Positions 1 to 57,300 of a stretch of DNA of 64,000 nt are shown here, in pieces (position 1 is the stretch's first letter; each line of letters starts with the position of its first letter). Under the pieces are notes generated by a model. It searched no databases, was not told where the DNA came from, and saw nothing but the letters and a program-made list of their open reading frames with translations. This stretch comes from Dactylonectria macrodidyma (lineage: Eukaryota; Ascomycota; Sordariomycetes; Hypocreales; Nectriaceae). Location of the stretch: NCBI GenBank assembly GCA_020744425.1, contig JAGMUV010000033.1:186001-250000 (forward strand). The letters run 5' to 3'. The translations under genes were made by a program, and so were the position numbers.

Positions 1-1456
1 TGCCAACCCCCTCGGCGCACACGGTGTTCGAAGCCCAAATATGACCTCAGTTGGTCACCGCGGTCTACCCCGTTCATCTCGTCATTGTAGAAGGCAGCAA
101 CAGACGGGATAATAATCTCTTTCACTGGCTCGTCACCGAAAAATCGCTGTATTGGGCGTGCTCGAATTTGGTCTGTTGTCGGCCTCTTGCGTAACCGAAG
201 GACGGTCTCGTCGCCTGCGTACACAGTAGATAAGAACAACACAAGGGCGTTGTCTTTCCACGCGATCTGATTTACCTGGCCCAGGACAAATTAGTAGGGC
301 ATTTACAGCTAAAGCTGTCTGCTTGACTGACCTTATTATCCTTAGTTGGGACGGTCCTGATTTCGTTGAATTTGATATTTGCGGCAGCTGTGTTATCGTC
401 ATTTTTGAGCTTGACTAAGGGCTTGTAGATGCCACAGTTGACTCGGGCTGTACCCGTAGCGCCGTGGCCGTGCTCGCGGAGGCTGCGTAGGAGGTCGGGA
501 GAGGAAAAGAGGTTATCGATAAAGACGTGATAGTTGGCTTCTGGCAGCAAGTTTAGTAGGGCAACAACCACAGCCTGCGTCGGGTTCAGATAGACTGTCT
601 TCTCCTGCTTGGCCTCACGCCGCCGTTGCCGGGCAGGCTTGAGACCAACAGGTCCAAACCTAGGTCCGGGCCTATGCCAAATCCAACGTAGGAAATAGCC
701 CTGCTGTGCTGCAACCCAAACTTTGAAGCCGACGGGGATCGGCTTGTTAGGGACTCTTGTTGTCTCTTTTGACCTCCCTGTATAGCGGGCCATACACTCA
801 TCTACAGCGATGCAAGTGCCTGGAACATAGAAATCCGTAGACACGCGCTGTATGTGGTCAGACCACGGCGTCACACGGTCATAGGTGAGGGCGCTGTTGC
901 TGCTTATGGTGATGTGAGGGCTGAAAATGCGAATGTGACGATGTAGCTGCTGAAATCGGTCATAGGTCATATATTTGATGATAGAGTGAGTAGAGTGTTG
1001 GTGCCCCGGCCGAGAAGTCTCCCAATGGTCTTCGAGGTCAAGTTCAGTGTGAATCCCTAAGTAAATAAGGATTGCGACCCATATGTAGACTTCTGCAACA
1101 GAGGTTGGTCTCCAGAGGCGTAACCGTGATCTTGGCGGTAATGTGTGTGCACAACCGCGAGCCTCTTGCTGCAGGTGGCTAACCCAGTCATTGGTATATT
1201 TGACCCAGCTTTCTACTAGGGAAATAGGTAGGAATTGCTGGAAAAGAGATAACGGGTCCTGGGGCAGGTCCTTGACCTTAAAGTCGTGTGTTGGAACCTC
1301 GAAAGGCATGAAGTTGTAGCCGCGTTCGTTGACAGGGGCTAGGTTCGGCCGGCAGGTGTTGTCAGCTCCCTGCTCCCGGCGGCTGTTATCAGTGCAAATG
1401 AAGCTGTTATCGTCATACACATTGATTGCCTGTGTTGAGGGCACTTGGGTATCCAT
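1..1456 (-). CDS. PiggyBac-type (PGBD) transposase, 3' end beyond the window
   Basis: This is a DDE_Tnp_1_7 cut-and-paste transposase. Exon 1 runs 1456-332, an intron of 56 bases (GTCAGT donor, CTAAT-type branch, CAG acceptor) spans 331-276, and exon 2 runs 275 to the window edge. Splicing keeps the frame, giving TKDNK then VNQIAWKDN. The three catalytic aspartates of the piggyBac family are all visible: VDECM and IDNLF in exon 1, and VDRGDQL in exon 2. I chose the ATG at 1456 (MDTQVPST) because the open frame before it, back to 1537, has no family features. The C-terminal cysteine-rich domain would lie off the left edge. Exon 1 has no stop or frameshift, so the copy could be intact, but the ends of the element cannot be checked. 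A second relic at 12.7-14.2 kb shares the same intron position. Confidence 0.88.
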
Positions 1457-2270
1457 CGCGAAAGTCAGAATCGTTTGTATGTGTATTTTGGTGGGGTTGA
1501 TTCTGACTACGCGACGCGTTACTCTGATGTACCTCACTGTGAGCAGGGGTCATGTGGGGCACAATCTGGCCTGGAGCCTTAACACAGTCAAAGGGATAGA
1601 GCCCGTGTAAGGCGGCCCGGGTAGCAAAATGGTTCGGCCCGTATAGCAATTGCCTTGTATAATACAGAAGTGTTGGAAAGCCTCGGTGCACTTTAGCAAT
1701 GAAGCCATAAATCTCTAGGCATTGCCATAGCCTAAGATGGGCAACAGGCCCACGGCTACCTCTCAGCGAGCAATTGCCAACTTATCTGTGCAAATAAAGG
1801 CATAGAAGCCTTCGCTAGTGTAAGTAGTCCACGTTCTAGGTCTGTCACACCGGTCTTGCCAGAGGTCGCGCTTGGTTGCTCCGTGACAGTTACAATCTCT
1901 AGTGCAGCCTTGCATGTACCAGCAGTCACCTGTTGCTGTGGCGCTCAGCCACTGTGGCGCCCTGGGCTCGGACAGAGGTGTAGCTCCACACTGCCTTGTA
2001 CGTTCATCGGTGGCATTCAATACGAGCAGGTTAGGCTGTTCACGCTGGACGGGGTTGGCCGCCTTGTAAAGCACTCGAAGATCCCAGCAGTATCCGGCTT
2101 GTGAAGAGCGACTGGTAGTCGGTGCGGAGTAGGGACTGCCCATGGTGGGAGGAATTAGCCGAGCTAGGGCTCTTGTACGAGGCAGATGGTGAGCGTGGTT
2201 TAACTCTGCGTGGAGTGGTCGACCGTCATATCTCGACGTCATGGCTTAGCCCGGGTTTCTGATCTGCTAC
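1457..2270. other. Region between PiggyBac start and the kinase-ankyrin gene end; no supported gene
   Basis: This stretch presumably holds the PiggyBac 5' region. A 159-codon open frame on the minus strand (2242-1763) is cysteine-rich toward its end (CWYMQGC and later C residues). It might be a scrambled PiggyBac tail, but I cannot support a protein call. Confidence 0.3.
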
Positions 2271-3059: not shown

Positions 3060-5817
3060 CAGGCTTTCTATCCATACTCCATACTCCATACAGACCCGTA
3101 TGGAATATGGAATATGGAATGGGCCTCGTATGGAAGCTTATTCCATACGTATGGAATACAAAAAATGACGTCATCTCACACTACCACTATCGTAAAGAAC
3201 CAGGTTTGGGAGCTCTGCAATTCAGTAATTGTACAGTGATTTGCCTGCCGTCGGCTGCAGACAGCGCTGACATTGAAGTATGAACCAGCATAGACGAAGG
3301 TTTGGGATCACTCTGAAACAGACTATAATAGCGGGAATAATATTTTTACTTTTCAGTCTTGAAAAGAATCAGGTGTTGAGCCCCGCCACCTTTCCATACT
3401 ACCACCTTCCTCCTCGTTCTCCCCCTCTTCGACCAAGTCGACCGGAATTCCCTGGGTGATGCCGCTCTTAATCCAGCTCTTCATGCACTCTCCTCTCTCG
3501 ATTGTACGACTTCCCAGCCGACATCGATCCCATGATATTGTGCGTCGTGCGCCAGAAAAGACGCGCTCTGGCTCGGCCGACATAGCGGGTATTGAGAGGA
3601 TATCGACGGCCATTTTGGATAGACGGGGGTATCGTTGTTGCTGCTCCTCTCTAAGCCACCAAGCAAGCGGGGAACAGTCGATGGCGACAGGAGTTTCCGC
3701 GGTGAAGGACTTGTATTCGTCGAGATCACTCATCGCTGGGCTAACGACATCGAGCTCTCGAGCAAGCAGGTCATACTCGTCGAGTGGCTGTAGGCTGTCT
3801 CGTAGCTCAGGCGTTGTGGTGGTAATCGGTAACCCCTGGTAGTAATCCTCCCAATACTTCTTCACGCCATCAAGGACTGGTTTGTGCCACGATTTGGGCC
3901 AGTTCTTCTTAACATGGGCCATACGCCGCGACGGATGAAGTATCATGGCTGCGCCATAGGCAGGGCTCTCATCTGTAAGCTGGTAATACTTGTCAAATAT
4001 AGCCCATGAGGCTGCAATGCAACTTCGGAGGGGATGATTGTCGGATTGCTTTTGGAAGGCTTGTGTGTAATGCTTGTGAAGAACGTCCATGGTGAAGAGC
4101 GTGCGGTCCAGAGTGGCATAGCGGCCCTCCGTGAGTTGAGTAATCTTCCAGAAGGGTTGAAGGAAAGCGCGTGTTTCCCGTAGGACTCGCCACTCATTAG
4201 GGGTGAGATAATCGTCCTGCGTGTCCTCATAGTACTTTCTCTGATACCACTCCACATGCTCCTGGAGATCAAGGACAACGTCTAGAAGAAGGAACCATGA
4301 GTTCCAGCGCGTATCGTTGTCAAGGCCCAACGACCTTCCAGCGCGCTTCTTAAATAGATTCCACCGATAATCATTCTCGCGCATGTGCACTGAGATATTG
4401 TGGACTTTGCCAAGTGGCCCCAGTCGACGCCAACCAAGCGCTTTTTGCGCCTTGACCCGTTCAGCAAAGTCACTGCCAAACGCAGCTTCGTCGTCGCCCT
4501 CAATCTGTTCCAGAGCTGCTCGTGCGGCTTCTTTGGAGTCCATGAAGAGGAAGGCTTGAACAGCGAGGTTGATGACATGGCCATGGCATCGAATCCTCTG
4601 CTTCTTTGCCTCCCAGTTGATGCCTTTCCCCTGAAGATGTTTGCCCAGCAAACGGCAGAGCTTGTCGTTTGAACCATGGTTATCACCGGTATAGAAGCCG
4701 ATCTTATTCCAGATGTTATAGTCTTCGAGGACATGCTGGAGAAGCTTCCACTGCTCAGCTCCGCCATGGCTACCCGGCCCATCGAGGCCGGGTAGCTCTG
4801 ATAGAGCAAGCAGCGCTTGCAGTGTCTCCTTAGCGTCCGTGTCGACAAATTTGACGCAAATTCCGAGGAAGGCTTTGTGATTCGGAGCCGACCAAACATC
4901 TACAGAGAGATGGAGCTTCGACGACGAGGATTGCAGCTTTCTCCGCAGGACATCCTTGTGCACACAATAAGAATTGGAGACAAGCTTTTGAATGGAGCCG
5001 TGGGAGAGGCTAATTAGGTCCTCCGCAGTGTAGTTCACCGCGCAAATGAGCGCGTGTAATTCTGGCCAAGAGCTGCAGTTGTAGGAGAGGTTGCGGACGG
5101 TGACGAGCTGTACCAGGGCCTCAAGTGCGGCCTTCCGATTGACTGCAGCTCTAAGAGTTTCCTCTTGCCTCGCCAATTGCTTCGTAGTATTCGCCTCACC
5201 AGCCTTGGCGAAAGCATCCTGAATAAGATTGTCGCGTTGTTTCTTGATCGGATGGTCGTGGGCAACTAACTCAATTCCGTGGATTTTGAGCAAATGGCGG
5301 CGAAACGTGGTTGAGACAGTAGTGGAATAGGTCGGATCTCTGCAATGCATACAATAATAGATCTTCTCATTTTTCCGAGGGCAGCGCGCAGGCTCTGAGT
5401 TCTGAGGCTCACGGGCATGTGCCCAAGTATTTGCAGTTGACTTGCGTTTTCGAGTCTTGCGGCCGCTGCTGGAGGATGGATCTTGCGGAGCAGAACTTGG
5501 AGATGAGCGAAGCCCAGTGGTGGACGAAGCCGACCCCGCACGGTCAGTGGAATGATTTGAAGCGAGGGAGGACGGTTGGAACATTTCCGGGCCGATCGCA
5601 TCACGACGCGCCTTTTCGTTGCTGATGTCGAAGCGGAAACCCGATGAAAGTGCCTGGTAATTACACAGCCCCTGAATTTGCTGCGGCAGGATTAATATTC
5701 TTCCGGCCTTATTCCATACGTATGGAATACGGACGGCCCGTATGGAATATGGAGTATGGAGTATGGAATATTCCATACTCCATCACTTATTCCATACGAG
5801 TATGGATAGAAAGCCTG
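3060..5817 (-). mobile_element. Apparently complete autonomous hAT transposon (2758 bp)
   Basis: Terminal inverted repeats begin CAGGCTTTCTATCC and match for 20 bases at both ends. An 8-base direct repeat TCCTGACC flanks the element (3052-3059 and 5818-5825). CAG/CTG ends with an 8-base duplication are typical of hAT elements. Subterminal regions (3065-3165 and 5705-5800) are packed with the motif TATGGAATA and its reverse, probable transposase-binding repeats. The single transposase gene inside is uninterrupted. Perfect ends, a perfect duplication and an open frame point to a recent insertion. Its host site is coding sequence of the kinase-ankyrin gene. Confidence 0.95.
3353..5584 (-). CDS. 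hAT family transposase (BED finger, RNase H-like core, hATC dimerisation domain)
   Basis: The protein is about 743 residues if started at the ATG at 5584 (MFQPSSLAS). The open frame continues upstream into the terminal repeats, which is unlikely to be coding. A BED-type zinc finger is visible as YYCMHC followed by a His pair (FRRHLLKIHG). The middle holds hAT core signatures (YTGDNHGSNDK, RIRCHGHVINLAVQAFL and DNDTRWNSW). The C-terminal hATC domain reads PLAWWLREE...RYPRLSKMAVDILSIPAMSAEPERVFS. There are no stops or shifts, so it may be active. It is transcribed in the same direction as the gene it interrupts. Confidence 0.93.
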   Translation of the reverse strand: MFQPSSLASNHSTDRAGSASSTTGLRSSPSSAPQDPSSSSGRKTRKRKSTANTWAHAREPQNSEPARCPRKNEKIYYCMHCRDPTYSTTVSTTFRRHLLKIHGIELVAHDHPIKKQRDNLIQDAFAKAGEANTTKQLARQEETLRAAVNRKAALEALVQLVTVRNLSYNCSSWPELHALICAVNYTAEDLISLSHGSIQKLVSNSYCVHKDVLRRKLQSSSSKLHLSVDVWSAPNHKAFLGICVKFVDTDAKETLQALLALSELPGLDGPGSHGGAEQWKLLQHVLEDYNIWNKIGFYTGDNHGSNDKLCRLLGKHLQGKGINWEAKKQRIRCHGHVINLAVQAFLFMDSKEAARAALEQIEGDDEAAFGSDFAERVKAQKALGWRRLGPLGKVHNISVHMRENDYRWNLFKKRAGRSLGLDNDTRWNSWFLLLDVVLDLQEHVEWYQRKYYEDTQDDYLTPNEWRVLRETRAFLQPFWKITQLTEGRYATLDRTLFTMDVLHKHYTQAFQKQSDNHPLRSCIAASWAIFDKYYQLTDESPAYGAAMILHPSRRMAHVKKNWPKSWHKPVLDGVKKYWEDYYQGLPITTTTPELRDSLQPLDEYDLLARELDVVSPAMSDLDEYKSFTAETPVAIDCSPLAWWLREEQQQRYPRLSKMAVDILSIPAMSAEPERVFSGARRTISWDRCRLGSRTIERGECMKSWIKSGITQGIPVDLVEEGENEEEGGSMERWRGSTPDSFQD

Positions 5818-6023
5818 TCCTGACCCAACAGACCCTTGATGATGGCCCTCCCGCTGTGGCTAGAGACCGAGAAAGCACCAGACAGATCTACTTTAGGCCG
5901 ATTAGGGAGTCGCTCCGGCCATTTGCCAAAGAACAAAGCGTTGCTGTAATCGTGAAAGGCACGGGACATGTCAACCAAATTGAGCCGAAGGCGTCCCACG
6001 AACCGCAAACCAAAGGCCATCTC

Positions 6024-9000
6024 CTAAGTGGTGACCAGCAACCCACTCCTCGCCCCATGCCGAGCCAAGAGTGCGATAATGCAGTTCAGCCGCGCTCGCC
6101 AATGTCTAACCTCAATTATACCACCTTGAACGACAGCCGGAGGTGCTTTGGAATACAAGGCGTAAATGGCAAGATTGAATGCGGTTCTTCCAACCAGGTT
6201 CTCGTACAGCGGGCGAGCGACCTCGTGTCCAGGCTGAACTTCTCGGTTCATATCCACGCCTTTTTCGAGGAGCAACTGAACAGCCGCGACGCTCCCGTTC
6301 CAGGCAGCGTAATGTAGAGGTGCCCAGCCGCGTCCGTCGACGTGCTCGCAGCTCTGGGGAAACTTGTTGAAAAATATCACCATTAAGGCCTCCGCGGATC
6401 TGAAATCGGCAGCAGGGCCAAGAAACGGTGTGTCCAGAAGCTTGTGCCAGAAGACTACCTCCTCTTCTACATCTCGCATCTCCAGAACTTTGCGGTTTCC
6501 GTTTGGCTCGCGCCGACGAACCGACTGTTCAAACGGTAATTGGAGTTTTCTTCTGATAAGACAAGGTGGATCTTCGGCCGTGTTATCTAGAATCCATCGA
6601 ACGAGCGTGAGAGATGAGTGCGACCGGTGTTTGTTCGAGTTGTTGACAACCACGTGCAGAATGTCAGTCACTGATTTTAACGGTTCCTTCTCCAACTTAT
6701 CGAGTTGCAGCAAGTTCTCGATCCTGTCCGATCTTTGCCTGCGGTGCTCGAAGATGAATTTTGCAAAGGACAGTTGCCCTGCCTCGAGCGCAAACGAGAG
6801 AGGAAGAAGCCACAGCGGACCATTTACCACGAGGCCTTCAGGAGCTACTTCGTAAAGCTTCCCGAGGAAGTAGTCACCATGGCTGAATTGTGTAGAATAG
6901 CAAAACAAAGAGAGGAAATCCGGAGGAAGACGAATTGCGGCCAAATGGGGGTGCGTCGATAGGAAATGTTCGAAACAGCGCTTTGCATTCCTTTTGATGC
7001 AATATTTGAGCATTTGATGGATATCTTGGTCTTCCCAAGTGCGAATTGTAAGTATCAACTGAAGGTCAGATGGCTGATCTCCATCGATAATCGAGTTGAT
7101 GGCGGAGGAAGGATTCTGACAAAGTCCGCCGAGCGCAGCAATAGTTGCTTTCCTTTGTGTTAAAGCTTCGTTCCCATGAGCTGCGACCCTGAGAAGAGGT
7201 GCCATAAATTCCAAGATCAACGCCAATGGCATGTCGACATCTTCTGCAGTTGGGTTCAAAAGAGAAGGCTGTCCGCAAAGATCGGGATGGAACGATCGAG
7301 CTTGCAGGAGGCCCTCTACCATGGAAGCGTAGTTGAGAACAATAGCCAGCTCCAGTGTCTCGTTGAAATCGGTGATCTTGACCTGGTGTTGCAGATGAAG
7401 TTTAAGTAGCTTATCGAAGACTTCCGGCATCCCGTAGAAGACAGCGGCGCAGAGAGGGGAGCAGTCAAAGGCGAGGGTGACAACACCACCACTTCCAGTG
7501 CCCTCTGTTGGCCCAATCAAATCCAGTCTCGCCCCCAAGTTGAAGAATGTTCCACAGAGTTCCAGGGCAAGTGGATCATCCAGGCCGGCCAACCAGTGCA
7601 GGACATTCGTTCCATTATGCTCGAAGTCGGAGGCTCGACCTCGATGCGAATCAATGAACTTCCGGATTTCATCGACCTGACATGTCTTCAAGAGGTGCTT
7701 CAGATACCGCATTGAGTTGCTCCAGTCCTCTGGCGGCATCTTAGCGAGGCTCTGCGGCGGAACCTCCGTACGGATGAGCTCGGAAACTTTCGCCGCCAGA
7801 GCAGGATAGTATAGCTGCAGCTTTCTTCTCGCCGCTTTTGATCCTTCGAGAGAAAGTTTGGTAAGCCAGAATTTGACAGGGAGTTTTTCCCAATCGGAAT
7901 TGGCAAGCTCCCGGGAATTGTCGGAAAAGGCCAATACCAGGCGAGTTGCAAAACCGTCCGAATCTTTTCCACAGGCAACTTCACAAGTGGCTGCAAGCTG
8001 GAGCCATTTCAGACCTTCAGTGCTGTTTGTGTCGTTTCCGCTTTCCCACATTTTGGCCAGACCAGCGAGTAGGGCGTGGCGTGAAGTAGCCATGAGTTGT
8101 GGAGCATCTCGATGGCCGGTTAACCCCTGAACCAGTTCTCGAATTCTGCCTTGGAGTTCTTGCAGTTTGTCTTGAAGTTCAGATGACTCAGTGAATCCAT
8201 CTATATCCCCGAGATCGCCACCCTCTAAACCAAGCAGTTGGGTTGTTCTTCCAGTAAGGAGCGCATATGTGATGTTTCGCCAATAGTCAGGGGCTTTTCC
8301 GTATATGTCCCAGAACTTCCTCAGTCAGTACGCTGATGCAAGGGGGAGGCCTGATCTTACCTCAAAGGCATATTTATGATTAGGTTTAGCAGAATCTGTC
8401 GTGCTCCCAGCTTCCGAGTGTTGTTCTTTTCGTTGCCTGAACAGTACAACGATTAGAGAATGCTTTAATGATTGACAAGAGCTAAGGAGACAACTTACGT
8501 TTCCGTTTTCTGACGCGGCTCGACTTGGTACCTCGCAAAGTACTCGTCTATTATTTCACGAATTGTAAATCGGTCCCAGGGACAGGATGCCAACGAAGCT
8601 TTCAAGATTGAGAGCACAACTGGGGCCAGGGCAGAATTCAACCGCTCGCTTAAAGCCTTTGAGAGAAGGCTGACCAAGCTGTTCTCAGCATGGTCGACCT
8701 TCAGTTTCAGCCTCTCCCTTTCGTCTTCTTTCTCTCCCTCTGAGATTGTTTCCGATGGCACAAACTCCTCCGTGCCGCATGTGGAGAAGGACGGGTCTAG
8801 TTCATGAGCCCAAATCTCCGGGGTCCGCATCCAAATACTGGCAACGAGAAGGCCGTACGTATACACATCTGCTTTCCGCCAGTCGATGTTCGTGTCGTGA
8901 AGGAGTACCTCAGGTGGGCACCATAGATTGGTGAAATGTGACGGTTTGGCGTCCTCCCGCCCAACGTGGCAGCTGCCCGAGAAATCCGTGATCTTGGCGA

Positions 9001-9679
9001 CAATACCTCGTGTCTCGTGATGACAGACGAGGATGTTCTCACATTTAAGGTCGCCGTGAGCGATGCCGGCGTGATGAAGAGCGTCCAATCCCGTGCCGAT
9101 GTCTATGGTGAAGTTGATTTTGTCATCGCCGCTAAGGCCTTCTCCGGGGCTGCGAAGGACATAGTCGAGCGTTCCGTGAAGGGCTAATTCTACCCCGAGG
9201 GTTGGGAATGGAGACCCCTCTGTGTAACCGACAAATAGGAGTTTAGCGATATTCTCTTCGTCTTTGAATCTCGGAGAGGCCATGATCTCGACGTCCCGCT
9301 TGATTAGGTTGTATATAGTGCCTTCCGTAACTCTCTCCAGGTCTTCAGTCCCCTTATGGAGTAAGTATTGCTTGATAGCAACAGCAGTCCCTTGCGTCAA
9401 GTCGGGTCGGATGTCTGCCTGGACCTCGTAGCGCTTCACAACGCATGTCAAGCCATCCCCCAAGGCATAGGTGGGCGTCCATGTGCTTGAGGCTGTAGGA
9501 GCGTTTGGGAAGAAATAAGTCGCGACGTCATATTTTATGCAGGCTTCAAGAATGTCGATAAGTCCGGTCTCGGAAACAGAATGTCTCAGCGTTGTTGAGA
9601 AGGAGAGCGGAACGGGGGCGTCACCATCCGTGTCACTCGACTCGTAGTCGAAGAATCCTCGGTTGCTTCTGTCCTCCAT
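6024..9679 (-). CDS. Protein kinase fused to ankyrin repeats (truncated by TAG)
   Basis: Three exons: 9679-8499, 8436-8361 and 8315-6024, with introns of 62 and 45 bases; the joined frame gives 1182 residues. An N-terminal kinase domain (about residues 60-340) has the ATP lysine in VAIKQY, a catalytic loop HGDLKCEN (HRD varied to HGD, Asp kept) and DFS in place of DFG. The tail is rich in ankyrin-type helices, clearest in GWAPLHYAAWNG and VQLLLEKGVDMN near the C-terminus. Kinase-ankyrin fusions occur in fungi and, in animals, in RIPK4 and ANKK1. It starts 556 bases from the divergent HeLo-pseudokinase gene. The stop at 6026-6024 is followed in frame by 259 more codons once two transposons are removed, so the present protein is probably a truncation. 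Splice calls are by eye. Confidence 0.88.
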
Positions 9680-9719
9680 TGAACAAAGAGATCAGAGAGC
9701 AAAACCAGCGCACCCAAGC

Positions 9720-9751
<32 letters not shown>

Positions 9752-10235
9752 GGGAGGGGGGACCAGTCTCGGAATGAGCTGCAGGAATGCGATCATTTAC
9801 TGGTGCAATCAATCGAGGGCGTGTGCTATCGCTGCTTCTAATACAGACTCTACTTGGGCCGGGTGTAGTGCTGCCTAATTAATAGGAGTCTGCTGAGTGG
9901 TTTTGCGACACTGGCTTGGCACCTGGGTCGAAGCCCGGTTGAGAGCACTGCCCCTGCTGTAGCGCCTTGTACTCGGTAATTCGTAGTTCGCAGCGAATCA
10001 GGGATTTATGGCATTTTGCCCGGCCAATCAAAAAGAAAAGGAAAGAAAGATTTGAAACGGCTCGAAAGCTGAAACCAAGAAAACTGCAAAATATTCGAAT
10101 GTCGGCGCGCTGTCTTGAGACAGTGTTCAAGAGCACACTTGAGGCCTTCATATATCTGCCAGCTAAACCTCTCCAACATCTACCACGCCTCTTCCTCCGC
10201 ATTCTTTTACAGGATAGCTACTACATTTCCTCAAG
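9680..10235. promoter_or_regulatory. Shared divergent intergenic region of the kinase-ankyrin and HeLo-pseudokinase genes
   Basis: The 556 bases lie between the two start codons. A run of about 28 T residues begins near 9722, just upstream of the kinase gene. No other gene or repeat is visible. The short common spacing would allow coordinated expression, which is inference. Confidence 0.45.
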
Positions 10236-11954
10236 ATGGCAGACCCCGTCGGTGTTGTCCTAGGAGTCACGGGCATTCTCATCGCCCTTGACGGCGCTCT
10301 TAAGTCTTTCAATCTGGTCGAGGGCATCATCAGGGGCGACCACGAATCCGACCAACTCTATCTCCTATATGAGGCCAAGCGACAGAGCGTCAAACTGTGG
10401 GCTGACGAAATGAGAGTCGGGACGGCCCATCCCATCATCGAGAAACTCAACCAACCTACCATAGACTTGGTCAAGCAGACACTCACCGCAATCGAACAAA
10501 CGCACAAGGAGGCAACAAAATACCTCAGCAGATACACTGGTCGATACGACGGGTCGGAGGTCCTAGATGTAACCCCGGGGTCTTGTAGCCTTAGAGACGA
10601 AGCAGACCGGGTCGCGGCAAAGAAGCCGCTCCACAAGCTTCGCTGGGCTGTTCGGGATCGAGACAAATTTGCCGCTGCCGTGAGGCTCCTTGGCGATCAT
10701 GTTGACGCTTTGGTCGCCCTCACAAGCTCCGTGTCAAAGGAGGTCTTCGGACAACTAGTAGCCGCGAAAGTTGTTTCCGCCATCAACGACCCGGCCATGT
10801 TGAAGGGCGCGGGAGACACCAAAAACCAAGACCTGAATCAAGTTCTCGCAGGCGTCAAACTCCTCCAGAGCGGTGCCTCGGACATTGTTGGTGAACTTGA
10901 ACCAGAGCCAGAGAGCTGTGTTGCGTTGAAGGAGCCGACGAAGTCAAAGCTTCTTCCCCAGCCTCCAGCCTCAACTCCGCCCGGCCAATCAAATCAACCC
11001 GCCCAAGTCTCAACAAATACAGAAACCCAAAGGTTCTCTCTTGGCACATTCCAACCACCAGGGAACGCACTTTCCATCCCAGTTTGGGTTGAGTGGAGAT
11101 ATATCACTTCGCAGCTTTCAGAGCCCCAACGAGTGGCGATGAAGAGCCGCATCAAGAGGCTGGGATACTTGCTAAAGAAGGTGAACACTCAGCCAATCTT
11201 CCGAGTCCCGAACTTCATTGGTCTTTATAAGGATCCAACCTTTGACCTTGGTACCGGAACGACGCGGTGGGGCTTCATGTATTCCGTACCGGATGGAAAC
11301 TTGGCCCCCAGCATCTCATTCACACTGGCGAAAAGCTCTTTCCCCAATCCACTCTCCCTCAAAGACTACATTACAAGAGCAAGGACGGAGCAAATCCCAA
11401 CACTGGGGCAGCGTGTCAAGTTGGCGGTATCATTATCCATGACGTTTGCGATGCTCCACTCGGCAGGCTGGTTACACAAAGGATTTTCTTCTCGAACTGT
11501 GTGGTTCTTCAGTCCACTCAAGGGACGTGGTCAAAATCCTCCGGCACTGGACAATCCATACCTCACGGGTTTCAATTCCTCCCGGCCGAGCAACGACGAG
11601 TCCCTAGAGAGGAACCAGATTGGCAACCAGTACTGGCTCCACCCTGACACTTCTCAGGGGTTCACCAAGATTCTTGATCTCTACAGCCTCGGAGTGGCTC
11701 TATTGGAGATTGGACTCTGGTATCCAGCCACGGGTCGAGTACCCAAGGAGCATCAGGAATCGGCTGAGGCTTTCCATGAGTACTTGTCCACGAAGACGGT
11801 GAAAGAGTTGGGCTTCCGAACTGGACTGCTGTATCAAGAAGTCATGGAGACCCTGCTTACTTGCAACTTTCCATCTGATGTTGATGATGAAACTCTGACT
11901 CGAGAATTTTTCCAGAGAGTTCTACACCAGCTCCTAAAAATCTCGGTCGACTAG
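10236..11954 (+). CDS. HeLo-domain protein with C-terminal pseudokinase-like domain
   Basis: The single-exon protein has 572 residues. Residues 1 to about 200 match the HeLo (prion-inhibition and propagation, HET-s N-terminal) pattern: a short hydrophobic N-terminus (DPVGVVLGVTGILIALDGA), then helices with a Tyr/Leu-rich LYLLYEAKRQSVKLWADEM. HeLo domains insert in membranes and kill cells when triggered. A Pro/Ser/Gln-rich linker (about 225-270) leads to a kinase-like fold of the kind annotated as DUF7580 in fungi. The catalytic loop is LHKGFSSRTVWF without the Asp, the DFG position reads GFN, and DLYSLGVALLEIGLW resembles the F helix, so it should not phosphorylate. Four-helix death domain plus pseudokinase is the plan of MLKL, while most fungal HeLo proteins pair with amyloid or NLR parts. 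A pogo relic starts nine bases after the stop codon. Confidence 0.85.
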   Translation: MADPVGVVLGVTGILIALDGALKSFNLVEGIIRGDHESDQLYLLYEAKRQSVKLWADEMRVGTAHPIIEKLNQPTIDLVKQTLTAIEQTHKEATKYLSRYTGRYDGSEVLDVTPGSCSLRDEADRVAAKKPLHKLRWAVRDRDKFAAAVRLLGDHVDALVALTSSVSKEVFGQLVAAKVVSAINDPAMLKGAGDTKNQDLNQVLAGVKLLQSGASDIVGELEPEPESCVALKEPTKSKLLPQPPASTPPGQSNQPAQVSTNTETQRFSLGTFQPPGNALSIPVWVEWRYITSQLSEPQRVAMKSRIKRLGYLLKKVNTQPIFRVPNFIGLYKDPTFDLGTGTTRWGFMYSVPDGNLAPSISFTLAKSSFPNPLSLKDYITRARTEQIPTLGQRVKLAVSLSMTFAMLHSAGWLHKGFSSRTVWFFSPLKGRGQNPPALDNPYLTGFNSSRPSNDESLERNQIGNQYWLHPDTSQGFTKILDLYSLGVALLEIGLWYPATGRVPKEHQESAEAFHEYLSTKTVKELGFRTGLLYQEVMETLLTCNFPSDVDDETLTREFFQRVLHQLLKISVD

Positions 11955-11963
11955 GGGTAAGTA

Positions 11964-12548
11964 CCATGCAGTACCCCTCCACCGGTAAGGCCCCTCTACC
12001 GGTAAGCAAAAACAAAATTTCCCCATACAAAATGCCCAACTTCAATTACACGGCGTTTGGCCAAGATTGAAGTTATTGGCATAGGACAATGTCTGTTGTA
12101 TTCAGAATTTCATGCTGTTTGATATTATCACATTGCTTTTTTGATCACATAAGCAGTACGGTCGCATGACACTAATGTAAAATTTCTCAAAATGCCTCCT
12201 CCGTGAACCAGCCTCTCTGAAGCTTCATCAAATTTTATCAACACCAGCCTTCCATAATCGCTTCAAAAATGCCTCGAATGTCTTATACAGAGAATGACAC
12301 TATAGAAGCAATATTAGATGTCACAGATAACGGCCTCTCCCAGAACCAATCCGCCCAGAAGCACGGCATGCCTCAGACCACTCTTTCGGACCGATTAAGA
12401 GGCCTACCGTCTAAGTCCGAGGTCATCCATCCTGCCCAGCTATTATCCAAGTCTCAGGAGGCCAGATTAGTTACATGGATACTTCGGCAAGAGGCCTTGG
12501 GCTATGCCCCTTCTCACAGTCAAGTTCGCGCCACCGTCGCTGCCCTCT
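11964..12548 (+). mobile_element. Pogo/Fot1-type element, 5' fragment with HTH part of the transposase
   Basis: The fragment begins after a TA at 11962-11963 with a terminus containing TGCAGTACCC and short CCGGTAA repeats. The same terminus, reversed, ends the related fragment at 38205. An open frame from 12269 (MPRMSYTEND) encodes a CENP-B/psq-type helix-turn-helix (NGLSQNQSAQKHGMPQTTLS) and the start of the next domain (WILRQEALGYAPSHSQVR). It is cut at 12548 by a MITE, and the DDE catalytic part is missing. It lies immediately after the stop of the HeLo-pseudokinase gene. Confidence 0.8.
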
Positions 12549-12719
12549 GTGACGGTACAAGAGCACGAACGAGGTCGGGTGCGACTTGGGTAAAATGATT
12601 GTTTACAAGGAGAGAAAGAGATTCCTAAGGAAACCTCTAACTTAAGCTATTTACACAATAACTTATTCATAAAGTGGGACTATTCATAAAGTATGAAAGT
12701 CACATGATCGTTCCCTCAC
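12549..12719 (-). mobile_element. MITE family B, copy 1
   Basis: The copy has imperfect ends GTGACGGTAC and (reversed) GTGAGGGAAC with a conserved interior (AAGAGCACGAACGAGGTCGG and a TTCATAAAGT repeat). Three other copies lie at 13428, 17197 and 49034. No target-site duplication is visible: the left flank is the pogo fragment and the right flank is the truncated PiggyBac tail. Confidence 0.85.
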
Positions 12720-14197
12720 AATCATAGCCTATGTCAGCCCGAAGCTGGTCACCGCGGTCCACGGAGTTCATGTGGTGGTTATAGTGGATAGCGATACTCG
12801 GGGTTGAAACGACCTTTTGCTGTATATCACTAAAAAACTGCTGTGACTGCCGGGCTCTTCGATGACTTGACGAGGGTCGGCGTCGCTCAACATCTTGCAC
12901 CTCACTGCCACTAAAGTAAGAGGTCAGGAACAACACGAGGGCGTTATCCTTCCACGCGATTTGGTTGACCTAGTTCAAAGAGAGACAAATTAGTAAGGAA
13001 ATCACATACAAGGATGTCCTGTGGGTCATATACCTGATCGTTGACTGTGGGAACTGCTCGTAGCTCGTTAAAAGCCCACTGCAACTTGCCGTCATTATCA
13101 GCACGCTTAGCAATGACGAAGGGCGGATATAAGCCGCTATTCACACGTGCTGTGCCCGTAGCTGCAACGCCTTTTTCTCTAAGAGCTGCGAGTAGTTGAG
13201 GCGTTGAGAACAGGTTGTCAAAGAAGACGTGATAGCTGGCAATTGGCAGTTGCATAACTAGGTCTAGGACCACGGCCTGCGTCTCTGCAAGTTCCTTACG
13301 CTCAGCACGGCGTGCGCTTAGGATCCCTCGCGCCTTCGGGACTGCGTTGCTAGGGATGTGGACTTTCCAACGGAGAAAATAGCCCTGTTGGGCTACGACC
13401 CAAATCTTCAAGCCTGTAGGTGTAGGTGTGACGGGACAAGAGCACGAACGAGGTCGAGTGCGACTTGGGCAAAATGATTGTTTACAAGGAGAGAAAGAGA
13501 TTCCTAAGGAAAGCTCTGACTTAAAGCTATTTATACAATATTCATAAAGTGAGACTATTCATAAAGTATGAAAGTCACATGATCGTTCCCTCACAGTAGG
13601 CTTCCTTGGAATCGTTACCTTCGCCTTCGTTCTCCCTTTGAAGCGGATCATACACTCATCTACAGCGATGTGTGTGCCCGGCACGAAGAGGTCTGAAGAG
13701 ACAGCTTGTATATGACTAGACCACTCGGAAATACGAGAAACGATTCGGTCGACGGCGTGAGGGACAGTTTCAAACGGCGGAAAGATGCGAATATGTCGAA
13801 ATAGTATGTGAAAACGCGAATATGTCATCCATTTGAGGATAGGATGTGTCGGGTGAACAGACCCCGGGAGAGAAGTAACCCAGTGGTCTTCGATGCTTTT
13901 TTTGCGGTGGATTCCTATGAAAATCATCACCGCAAGCCAGATGTATACTTCTGCAACCGTGGTCGGCTTCCAGTTGCGTATTTGCGGCCGATTTTCGATA
14001 TCTGCAGTAAGCTGGTACATAACCCACTCATTCGTCCAAAGGACCCATTTCTCAATGAGGGAAACAGGGCAAAAGAGCTGGAATAGCTCGACAGGGCTTT
14101 CTGGGAGGTCCATTGCAACAAAATCGCGGAATTGAGGTTTGAAGGGTTGAAAATGGAAGCCCCGCTGTAAGGTGGGGAGCTTCACCTTAGGCAGCAT
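12720..14197 (-). pseudogene. PiggyBac-type transposase relic, split by a MITE and truncated
   Basis: The frame runs from 14197 (MLPKVKLPTLQRG) through the first catalytic motif AVDECMIRF, is interrupted after PRKPT by a 167-base MITE (13428-13594), resumes as GLKIWVVAQQGYFLRW, passes FFDNLFST, and is spliced (intron 13033-12970) to VNQIAWKDN. It ends shortly after VDRGDQLRAD where another MITE begins at 12719. All three catalytic Asp codons remain, but the C-terminal cysteine-rich domain is lost. It is a relative, not a copy, of the transposase at 1-1456, with the same intron position. Confidence 0.9.
13428..13594 (-). mobile_element. MITE family B, copy 2, inserted in the PiggyBac transposase
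   Basis: The 167-base copy interrupts the codons for PRKPT-PTGLKIW. The host sequence predicted without it reads GCCTGTAGGTGTAGGCTTCC. GTAGG is present on both sides, consistent with a decayed duplication of about seven bases. This fixes the element boundaries near GTGACGGG and CCCTCAC. Confidence 0.88.
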
Positions 14198-36154: not shown

Positions 36155-36619
36155 TGCTCAATTATCCTCATTCTCCTCTTCCTCTTCCTCGTCCGGCTGA
36201 CTGAGCTGCTGAGCATTGAGTTAGTAGTTGAATTGCATCTGAAGATTTAATTACGCTCACAATCCAGAGCCGAGCAGCCCCGGCGATGGCCATGAATCAG
36301 CGGGCACTGGGTCGAATCAATCCTCGGCCCTTCTTGACTCTGGGGCTCCTGCTGGGCGAGTCTCCAACCGCCGTGCCAGCGGTTGTAATTTCACTTACGG
36401 TGACGGGATTGGATGTGGGCATGATACAGTAACGCTGTTGACCACTGGCTTTTCCACGGCCGTGGTGATCCAGATTGGAAGGGATCTGGGGTCTGTAATT
36501 CCGGATAGCGGCATCATCCTGTTCTAAGTTGGGAAGGTACCACCAACAAAACCCCTGACGTTAGGCCGCTGTGGGCCAGTATCATCACGGTAAGTCAAAC
36601 TTATAGTGAGGCCACGCCC
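36155..36619. other. Intergenic; nothing recognised
   Basis: It may include the PiggyBac 5' region, with a run encoding acidic residues near 36165-36200 on the minus strand. Confidence 0.25.
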
Positions 36620-37715
36620 TTGCCGTCCCCCCCTTTTCTTGTTGGAACCAAGAAAATTCCCCCAAACTCACCGCCAGCAATGGCACGCCCGCCCAATCCA
36701 ATCGATCAATACCGTGACTATGTCACCCACCTCTACCTTAACGGTGTCTCTCGAAGCAAGATTCAGCATAAGCTTCGGAAGCATTACCATATCGCCGTCA
36801 ATCTCAGCACAATCTCTCGCCGAATCGCAAGCTGGGGTCTCCCGCGCCAGCAAGCCCGCACCAAAGAAAGTCCAGAGCTCATAGAGGCCACTCGCGACCT
36901 GATATTTCGCGTTGGGCTTACCGAGAAGCAGACGCTGAGCGTTCTACAGAGACAGGGCTGGCCGATCACGAAACGAGGTCTGAAGTGCATCAGGCTACAC
37001 CCGGACCGCCGCTGGCTACGCAGGCTCAACAGCGATGAGGAGCGACTCGCCTTGCTGGAGAAGACAGAGCAGGCCATCATCGAAATGACGCGACGTTCTA
37101 ATGCCATTTCGGGTTATGGCAGAAACCTTCTCCAGCCGTATCTTCGTCAGCAAAAGCAGCTCTGGGTACCAAGAGACCCTCTCTTTGAGATGTACAAAAT
37201 CATGTTCCCAAATGAGGTCGAGCTCCGGAAAAGGATGTTTCGGAGGAAGAAGGGACAGTTCCTTGTGCCAGGACCAAATTACCAGTGGTGCATTGACGGC
37301 CATGACAAGCTCAAGGCGTATGGATTCGAGATCTATGCCGCAATCGACGCTTACTCGCGCAACATTATCTGGTTCTATGTTGGCCACTCTTCTACAACTG
37401 CTTTGAGCGTCTTGAAGCAGTACTTGGCTGCATGCGACGCATACGGCTTCCGGCCATGGTATCTGCAGGCAGACAGGGGCAGCGAAACGCCCCTAGTGGC
37501 AGCAGCCCATTGGAACTTTGCTTTGGCCGCAGATGGGCGGGTGGAGTGGAATGGGCAGGTCTTCCAGCAAGGGAAACGCCTAAAGGATTCCTACAAGGCG
37601 GCGCCGAGTACGAAGAATATCAAGATTGAGAAATGGTGGGAGAGCATGCTGCATGTCTCATCCCGGCAGTGGGTGGACTACTTTGGAGAGCTCACCAGGG
37701 ACGGGGACTTCGACG
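36620..37715 (+). CDS. Integrase-like (rve/DDE) transposase, C-terminally truncated
   Basis: The frame begins at 36620 or, more likely, at the ATG at 36680 (MARPPNPIDQYRDYV). An HTH follows (YLNGVSRSKIQHKLRKHY). The catalytic core of retroviral-integrase type has its acidic residues in YQWCIDGHDKL, LQADRGSETP and IKIEKWWESML, a D-D-E set. Lines such as YAAIDAYSRNIIWFYVG are typical of integrase cores found as single genes in fungal genomes. The mobile-element class is uncertain. The family sequence ends at RQWVDYFGEL near 37700, and the last codons of the open frame (to 37741) belong to an inverted pogo fragment, so the copy is broken. Confidence 0.8.
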
Positions 37716-38205
37716 GCGGGCTGGGTGACCTCGGACTTTGACGGTAGGCCTCTTAATCGGTCTGAGAGAGTCGTCTGGGGGATGTCATGCTTCTGGGCGG
37801 CTTGGTTCTGGGAGAGGCCGTTATCTGTGACATCCAGTAAGGCTTCGACAACGCCATTCTCTGTATAAGACATTCGGGGCATTTTTGAGGTGATTACGGA
37901 AGGTTAGTGCAGATAAAAATTCGATGAAACTTGGTGGAAGCCGATTCTTGAACGAGGCCTTTTTAGAAATTATACATTAGGCCCGTGCGACCAAACCGCT
38001 TCTGTAATGTAAAAAGTAATATCATAATATGAAACAGCATGAAACTCTCAATAAGACACAGCTTGTTTCATGTAAATAACTTCAATTTTGGCCAAGCACT
38101 GTGCAAGTGAAGTTGGCCATTTTGTATGAGGAAATTTTATTTTTGCTTACCGGTAGGTGGGTATTACCGGTAGGTGGGTATTACCGGTAGGTGGGTACTG
38201 CAAGG
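37716..38205 (-). mobile_element. Pogo/Fot1-type element, second 5' fragment, fused to the integrase relic
   Basis: The minus-strand frame from 37882 (MPRMSYTENGVVEALLDV) matches the one at 12269, with the same HTH (NGLSQNQAAQKHDIPQTTLS), and loses similarity after SKSEV at about 37720. The outer end (38155-38205) has three GGTAGGTGGGTA units and the terminus shared with the 11964 copy, followed by TA at 38206-38207. Only the first part of the element is present. Confidence 0.82.
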
Positions 38206-54307: not shown

Positions 54308-57300
54308 CAGGGCTCCTAATAGTGCAACCGTTCGGTTTAGAGACCTCAAACTGATCCATTAGTCCATTTGGCTTGGCCACACTAAACTGCCGACCCGTTT
54401 GACTTAGCCACACTAAACTGCCAGTCCGCCTGACTTGGCCAAACTAAACTATCAGTCTGCCTGAGAAACGCAAACTGAACTGTTGGTCTGTTCATCACGG
54501 CCAAACTAAACCAACAGTGCAAACTGTGGTCTACACTATTAGTCTGAACAAAATAACCCGACTTGCGGCCTGCCCTCCTCGTACCTGCCACGCTGCCTCC
54601 AAAGCTCCCAACGCCGTCGTCGAATTGCCTCACCCGCCGCCTTGCTAACCCCTTTCCTGAATACTAAGCATTGGAGATGGTGCTGGCGGCTGCCGTACAT
54701 AGCAACACTAGACACACTTAGACAACCGCGCATCTGACAAAGCAGAAATCTTACCTCTGATGGGACTATCAGAACGCTACTGTCCCAGGATCGTAGGCAT
54801 TCCAAGAGATTCAACGTTTCGATATTCATAGCTCCTCGCTGCTCTGCTACCGAGAGTTTGGCCTTAGAGAAGAGTCGCTCTGTCTCAGTAGACATCGGCG
54901 CAATCGACAGAATGTCAATGGCCATCAAAGATAAGTTAGGGAACCGCCGTCGCTGCGCTGGTTCCAACCACCATTTCAGCGGATCCGATACCATAATCAC
55001 AGGCTCACGGCAGTACGCTTCGTACTCGTCGTAGTCCATGTTGAAAATGGTAGCCTTTTGCTCTTTCATCCACACTTTGTACCCATTTAGTCGCCTTGTA
55101 GTTGGCTCCTGTGCAAAAACTGGTCGAAGAACAGGCAAGGAGGTGGTTGATTTGTACGCCTCCCTCCATAGCTCGCCTACGCGGGCTTTAGCCCTCTCAA
55201 TCCATTCAGTCTTGCCCTCCCAAGTCTTCTCCATGTATGCCCACTTGAGGGAAGGATTCAACACCGTCGCTGCTGAATAGACCGGCGAATCTTCCGTCAA
55301 TTCATAGTAGTCGGCCAGTTTTGCCCACGCGGTCTCCATCATAGTTGCCAGGTGGGGGATGGTAGTGGCCTTCTTGGCCGCCTCAATGTGATGCAAGAGA
55401 TAGTCCATGGCAGGCAGAACGTCAGAGATGGAAATCCCCATGCCTTCATTGGCTATTGTAGCGTCATAAAATGGCTCGAGAAATTTATGAGTCTCCGCCA
55501 AAGTTGTCCAGTCAGCTGGAGTCAGAACATCGTCCTGCAGAGCCGGCTCCTGAGCACAAAATACAGTGATAGCTTGCCGGATTTTAGGCCTGAGGACCCA
55601 TTCGACCATGCCGTACCACGAATTCCAACGAGTGTCATTATCGCGTCGTAGCCTTAGACCGTCGGTGAGACGAGTAAACGTTTGAAGTCGCTGGGGGGTC
55701 CAAGTGATGTAGACCACGATATTATGCAGCTTGCCTATCGCCCCTCGCTTTCTCCATTGCTCAACTTCCTCGTCGGATGGCCCGTGGTAGGAATCAGTTG
55801 TGGGTGGTCGCTTTCCAATGAGGAACTCCATCACAGCCAGATTAATGATGTGGCCGAAACAGCGAAGTCGGTGAGGAAGAGGATCGTAGAAAACATCGAA
55901 CTCCTGTTCTACGTCGTCGGAGATTTTGTCGATCATGGTGTTCATGTTGGTGGCATTATCCATCATAAAGTATCCAACTTTTGACGCTATTCCAAATTCT
56001 CGTATGAACTGCATGATAGCTTCTGCCATGTTCTCGCCGCTGTGCTGTCCTTCCAATTCCTTTATCCTCACCACCAGTGACTGCAGGCCATGATCTTCGG
56101 TAACGAATTGAACTGTGAATCCTATTACGCCAAAACAATTTGGCCATGTCCAGTTGTCAGGAACAATGTGGATTGATGAGAGGGCATTCTGTAGAGCTCG
56201 CTTTACAAACTCCTTTTTGTTGTCGTATCCCCATTGTAAGTCATTTTTAACCGTGTCACCAGACCTCGGGAGGAGATCATCAGCGGCCGGACGAATATAC
56301 CGGATAAAGTCGCGAAAGGCCGGCTGCTCAACATGAGCAAAGGAGAGGCTGCAAGCTACTGTGTATCGACAGTACAATTAGCGCAGAGTAGCTGGGTCTA
56401 GGGCATCTTCCTCTGCCGTCGCCTTGCGTTTCTTGGTGGAGGCAAGACTTTCATCGGCCAGGAAGGCAGTGATGTCTCCAAGGCGACTTTGCGTCACTTC
56501 CCGCATGGTCTCTTGCCTTCCAGAAACCATGATCTTGTGCTCCGTCCGCAAATGATTGACAATGGCGGACGACCCACCAGAGCAGTTGTATTTCTTCGCT
56601 CTTTTCTTGTCGAAGCAGGGTTGGCAATGCCACCATTTCGTTCCGTTGGAATCGACCCAAGCTGCCGGAGTACCCTTCCCTTCTTCGCTTCGACAGTACC
56701 GCCAGATGGGAGACGTCTTTTTGCGGGGCGCACTAGAGGGTGGCGAAGATGATGGTGATAATGCTGTATGAGCAAGAAGGTCGGAGTCAACCGTATGGCT
56801 GGTACTGCCAATAGCACTGGCAGTCTCGGAGTGATCCACGCTAGAGGACATGATTCAGCAAAGACGGCACGTAGACAATAAGGTGGCGATCACGGGAGTC
56901 TGGTAGAGCAGAATTGTTGAAGAGACCAGGTTGCTTGTGGCACCTTTGGTCTGTCGACCTCAAGGGTAGTGGGTGTAGATATAGGCTGTACAACTTCCTC
57001 CCAAGGCACTTGAGAGTCGATGACTACAAATATACAGGCCAAGCCGCAGGGGCTGAAATCAACCAACCGCTTCCAATCGTTGGATCCGGCCACCCATGCT
57101 TGGTAACCAGCCAATTCAGAAGTCCTAGAGATTGGTTTGGACTACAGGCTCCAAGTCGTTCTTGGATTCCGCCTTCAACTTCCCGGTTTGGCACTTATCA
57201 AGTCTGCTGGCCAATGATTGGCCACGGTAAAAAGTTAGGTTCGCTGCTGAATATGGACACTGTTTAAGACGATTGTGTCAGTAGCGTGATACCTACGTTA

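Follow-up and report, generated by a model that had tools for sequence, protein, structure and literature searches.

Among fungal HeLo executioners, the best described are those that NOD-like receptors (NLRs) drive through amyloid templating. In the RIPK3-MLKL system of animal necroptosis, a four-helix executioner and a pseudokinase share one protein and the catalytic kinase resides in another; plant MLKL likewise joins a helical N-terminal domain to a pseudokinase, and we know of no kinase gene paired with it. RIPK4 and ANKK1 carry an N-terminal kinase and C-terminal ankyrin repeats. Here, we describe two divergently transcribed genes, A and B, of the fungus Dactylonectria macrodidyma, which occupy positions 6,024–11,954 of a 64,000-nucleotide stretch analyzed as a whole (the window; assembly GCA_020744425.1, contig JAGMUV010000033.1, positions 186,001–250,000 of the forward strand). 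Gene A encodes a HeLo domain followed by a pseudokinase, a layout shared with both animal and plant MLKL. Gene B encodes an N-terminal kinase with C-terminal ankyrins, as in RIPK4 and ANKK1, although its kinase profile shows no specific kinship to them. The two genes very probably form a functional unit. That it acts in death or incompatibility as a kinase-switched module on the RIPK-MLKL plan, in which one product would phosphorylate and the other kill, we regard as evenly poised.

Among published systems, for which the statements here refer to the accessible portions of open-access texts, the nearest idea is that of het-Va/het-Vb of Podospora anserina, a modifying enzyme and a HeLo protein with a reader domain that are proposed to kill (PMC9262711); there, the partners carry a methyltransferase and a TUDOR domain, whereas A and B carry a kinase and a pseudokinase. 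NWD2/HET-S and other NLR-HeLo amyloid pairs also form two-gene units, in which one member is a sensor with repeats and the other a HeLo effector (PMC5485727), and the HeLo domain of A matches that of HET-s. In contrast, the partner B is a kinase in which no NACHT or NB-ARC (NOD) domain was found by Pfam (exons 1 and 3 scanned), and the switch would appear to be of kinase-pseudokinase rather than amyloid type. Kinase domains occur among the effector domains of fungal NLRs (PMC10197012, PMC12258605), and some fungal HELL domains occur in kinase or pseudokinase proteins (PMC12881547). The latter HeLo/HELL proteins share the architecture of A, but the accessible text mentions no partner kinase gene. 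Fungal proteins of the Glomeromycotina have been assigned to the MLKL family, but these bear Sel1 repeats, are confined to that group, and are not described, in the text available, as part of a HeLo-DUF7580 pair (PMC8778642). Open-access literature searches covering the available text of PMC12881547, PMC10197012, PMC5485727, PMC7889193, PMC12258605, PMC4518210, PMC9262711, PMC8778642, and PMC7885112 yielded no report in which a HeLo-pseudokinase gene has a kinase gene as its partner. In addition, the word “kinase” is absent from PMC3321046 and occurs only in the references of PMC9815663, and an open-access search for DUF7580 gave no paper.

Gene A (10236–11954, plus strand) is a single exon, with its ATG at 10236 and its stop codon at 11952–11954, and encodes 572 amino acids. 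The HeLo domain (residues 6–187, 10251–10796) scores 45.7 bits against a Pfam cut-off of 23.2 (PF14479, 9e-12) and, in profile searches against solved structures, finds the HET-s N-terminal domain first (2wvo, 1.9e-21). A kinase fold is supported for the remainder of the protein (residues about 216–557, 10881–11906), although the Pfam match to DUF7580 (PF24476, residues 372–509) is marginal (2.8e-6, 27.6 bits against a cut-off of 27). On alignment, the catalytic loop is degenerate, reading HKGFSSRT (11475–11498) in place of the HRDLKxxN of kinases, so that HKG stands at the HRD position, and GFN (11568–11576) replaces DFG. The preliminary description of this DNA, which had recognized in A a HeLo domain and a kinase-like domain lacking both the catalytic Asp and the DFG motif, is therefore correct on this point. 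Full-length relatives are P0001 (77% identity) and P0002 (55%). The DFG Asp is lost in all 14 A-type proteins aligned, a set that includes two proteins (C77 and C8) outside the 14 gene pairs described below and lacks the pairs C10:132534 and C76:807149, which are also missing from the alignment of 12 B-type kinases. At this position MLKL reads GFE and the A-type proteins GF-x, and MLKL is the top kinase match of the A profile (3.9e-7).

The most hydrophobic 15-mer of the A protein spans residues 4–18 (10245–10289), and in 9 of 11 A-type proteins it is likewise N-terminal (C34 being judged from its first exon only), as membrane entry by an N-terminal helix, described for HET-S (PMC12881547), would predict. 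These features bear on an explanation in which kinase and pseudokinase form a relay for development or stress, with the HeLo domain merely a membrane anchor and no killing involved. Such a relay is quite unlikely: the strength of the HET-s match, the N-terminal position of the hydrophobic stretch, and the many, strongly diverged copies of these genes all argue against it.

Gene B lies on the minus strand, and its start codon is separated from that of A by 556 bases (9680–10235), as the preliminary description had stated; this interval is a possible shared promoter. It also contains a long poly-T tract (9723–9751). The preferred model of B joins three exons (9679–8499, 8436–8361, and 8315–6024; donors GTAAGT and GTAAGA) into a protein of 1,182 amino acids; its splice sites, and with them the second exon, are inferred, and alternative models that keep the frame exist. 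Exon 1 encodes the kinase domain (Pkinase, 5.7e-21), and exon 3 a long stretch free of Pfam matches followed by ankyrin repeats. The ankyrin matches are confined to the region near the C terminus (best match Ank_2, 4.4e-10), with the clearest repeats at 6243–6368. Ankyrins are present in five of the six partner sequences scanned (C1, C34, C43, C56, and C8, the last not among the 14 pairs), and the C7 stretch scanned gave no ankyrin match.

Alignment shows that the B kinase keeps the Asp, Lys, and Asn of its catalytic loop, HGDLKCEN (9035–9058), and the Asp of a DFS motif (8978–8986) in which Ser replaces the Gly of DFG. All 12 B-type kinases aligned retain both the Asp of HxD and that of DFG, and three, including the window copy, read DFS. 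Since all 12 read HGD, they are non-RD kinases. In the eight kinases of the genome with the highest scores (eight only, picked by score), the motif is [HY]RD, as it is in the kinase-ankyrin neighbor of an A-type gene at C8, in contrast to the B-type kinases. The earlier view of B as a catalytic-looking kinase with ankyrins holds for the catalytic Asp residues and the repeats; it needs amending in that the kinase is non-RD and that the frame stops early relative to its nearest relative, as set out below.

The evidence that carries the case for a functional unit is the linkage of A-type and B-type genes in the window's own genome (G000; 77 Mb, 77 contigs). Searches with A and with the B kinase exon gave 35 and 26 non-self matches, respectively. 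Each of the ten best of the 26 kinase matches has an A-type gene in divergent orientation no more than 3.2 kb away. Taking 40 A-type loci, 11 of the 26 lie no more than 5 kb from one, in a region covering 0.55% of the genome (binomial P ∼1e-18, treating sites as independent). One of these, C56, is post hoc, its A-type partner having first been recognized by inspecting the DNA beside the kinase and then used as a query; excluding it leaves 10 of 25. Three further matches lie 6.5–7.4 kb from an A-type locus, two of them divergent and one tandem, and the others, weak for the most part, have no such locus within 10 kb. After added queries, 14 divergent pairs were recognized, with matched stretches at most 3.2 kb apart: at C1 (two), C2, C7, C10 (two), C18, C27 (the window), C34, C43, C56, and C76 (three). 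At a site on C76 (L073, G000:C76:1062400-1065600), the A-type open reading frame (ORF) beside the B-type kinase seems too short for a HeLo domain. The aligned copies are only 19%–30% identical to those of the window, so the divergent order has outlived most of the sequence.

The control comparison used 36 A-type loci (plus C56 in one comparison) and a list of the 122 scored among 368 kinase candidates, omitting second-exon and neighbor rows of the Pkinase list; absence of a kinase here means absence of a listed one, and the HeLo and DUF7580 tallies are hits rather than proven genes. HeLo hits accompany 17 of the A-type loci; 11 of these adjoin a B-type kinase, always divergently, and 14 have some listed kinase within 5 kb. 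At that distance, none of 25 other DUF7580 loci and none of 39 other HeLo hits has a listed kinase. The latter tally includes the HeLo-DUF7580 gene C10:318380-320488, and moving that gene into the A-type set would give 14/18 and 0/38. Only 6 of 115 other kinases are near an A-type gene, and two of the six are fused to it. The conserved linkage anticipated in the preliminary description is thus found within this genome. At G000:C52:17381-20048, on the minus strand, the usual order is reversed, with DUF7580 matched upstream of HeLo; two genes may be involved.

Could an ancestral neighborhood simply have been block-copied many times, with no functional coupling? All 14 pairs come from one genome, and the A and B genes showed no sign of co-phylogeny (Mantel r 0.15, p 0.25, 12 pairs), both of which suit passive linkage. 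We nevertheless consider it highly improbable, given that the divergent order is kept in 14/14 close pairs at such low identity and that kinases outside the B-type set also adjoin A-type genes. At C4 such a kinase is divergent to the A-type gene, and at G000:C8:388345-391837 a HeLo-DUF7580 gene is convergent with the ankyrin-bearing RD kinase noted above.

Fused proteins argue in the same direction. Seven of 40 database relatives of A carry both a kinase and a DUF7580 domain, and the five rescanned (from Trichoderma, Drechslerella, Xylariaceae, Hyaloscypha, and one more) have the kinase N-terminal and DUF7580 C-terminal, the DUF7580 score falling slightly under the cut-off in two. HxD and DFG are kept in 7/7 fusions, all of them non-RD. 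Single ORFs with a kinase first and a DUF7580-type domain second also occur in the window's own genome, at G000:C21:889151-891517, where the DUF7580 score is under the cut-off, and at C5:508322-510619. The fused forms scanned gave no HeLo hit. That domains of neighboring genes are elsewhere fused adds to the signs of coupling. In addition, P0002 and P0041, relatives of A and of the last exon of B (about 45%–46% identity), respectively, each have a longest contig of 28,219 bases. The equal figure points to one contig and suggests that the pair is also present in a second organism. P0041 starts where exon 3 of B starts, as an intron-blind gene caller would give, and hence represents that copy without its kinase exon.

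A model that accommodates these observations treats A and B as complementary parts of a module that is transcribed divergently and present in many copies. The ankyrins of B would sense a non-self or damage cue, and its kinase would phosphorylate or otherwise engage the pseudokinase of A. The HeLo domain of A, a putative membrane-targeting effector, would be held in check by its own pseudokinase until this engagement frees it to attack the membrane, leading to death of the cell or hyphal compartment. Tight divergent linkage would be equally fitting for an antidote and for an activator, and many diverged copies would suit conflict genes, so B might instead restrain A, with loss of B, or its inhibition by a parasite or foreign allele, freeing the effector as in a guard or killer-antidote pair. 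This we think unlikely: the catalytic Asp residues are retained throughout the B-type kinases aligned, and the fused forms, with both domains in one chain and no HeLo hit, suit signaling more than sequestration.

Several results, besides the missing co-phylogeny, weigh against a RIPK-MLKL-like switch. The B kinase profile ranks EGFR, CTR1, ULK, and LRRK2 ahead of RIPK1, and on this profile the B kinase is not specifically RIPK-like. A profile of the A-type proteins of this genome finds the HET-s HeLo domain (9.3e-19) and then MLKL at 1.8e-11, tied with LIMK1, so that MLKL stands alone as top kinase in one of two A profiles, both run against solved structures only. Some A-type proteins (C18, P0002, and P0019) retain the catalytic HxD Asp, and the activation-loop region of A shows no clear Ser/Thr enrichment (62/415 residues). 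As for the linkage, 3 of the 17 HeLo-bearing A-type loci lack a listed kinase within 5 kb, nor is one near the C10:318380-320488 gene, and in 3 of 14 pairs the A-type member has no HeLo Pfam hit. The window copy of B may itself be incomplete: P0041, its nearest relative, extends ∼310 residues beyond the end of the B frame, and by eye the likeness to P0041 persists past the stop codon (5784–6023, minus strand), so the 3′ end of B may have been shortened here. Considered together, these data partly support the earlier interpretation. It is supported by the domain layout, by the kinase fold of A and its profile similarity to MLKL, and most of all by the linkage, but not, as regards kinship with RIPK, by the kinase of B; the fungal genes differ further in that the partner kinase bears ankyrins and the two genes lie head to head.

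The pair lies in DNA with many mobile elements. ORFs for transposases (DDE_Tnp_1_7 and two of hAT type) and for an integrase core occupy window positions 275–1549, 3356–5782, 36509–37738, and 54542–56377, with a hAT transposase ORF just downstream of B. Short direct and inverted repeats are present at 5703–5798, also just downstream of B, and transposase-like ORFs were noted by eye just downstream of A (12221–12598 and 12944–13558).

Other copies in the genome would be better suited to experiments than that of the window, and 14 natural pairs in one genome offer material for work on specificity. We tentatively propose, at a little short of even confidence, a fungal family of RIPK-MLKL-like two-gene systems in which the switch for a HeLo-pseudokinase executioner is a non-RD kinase equipped with an ankyrin sensor. 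If this is true, HeLo proteins would be controlled by one more route, in addition to amyloid templating and direct receptor fusion, and four-helix executioners would be under kinase-pseudokinase control both in fungi and in animals. With a conserved kinase as partner, the role of the pseudokinase in HeLo-pseudokinase proteins would be explained, and one could test whether kinase control is an ancient trait of MLKL-like executioners or arose repeatedly.

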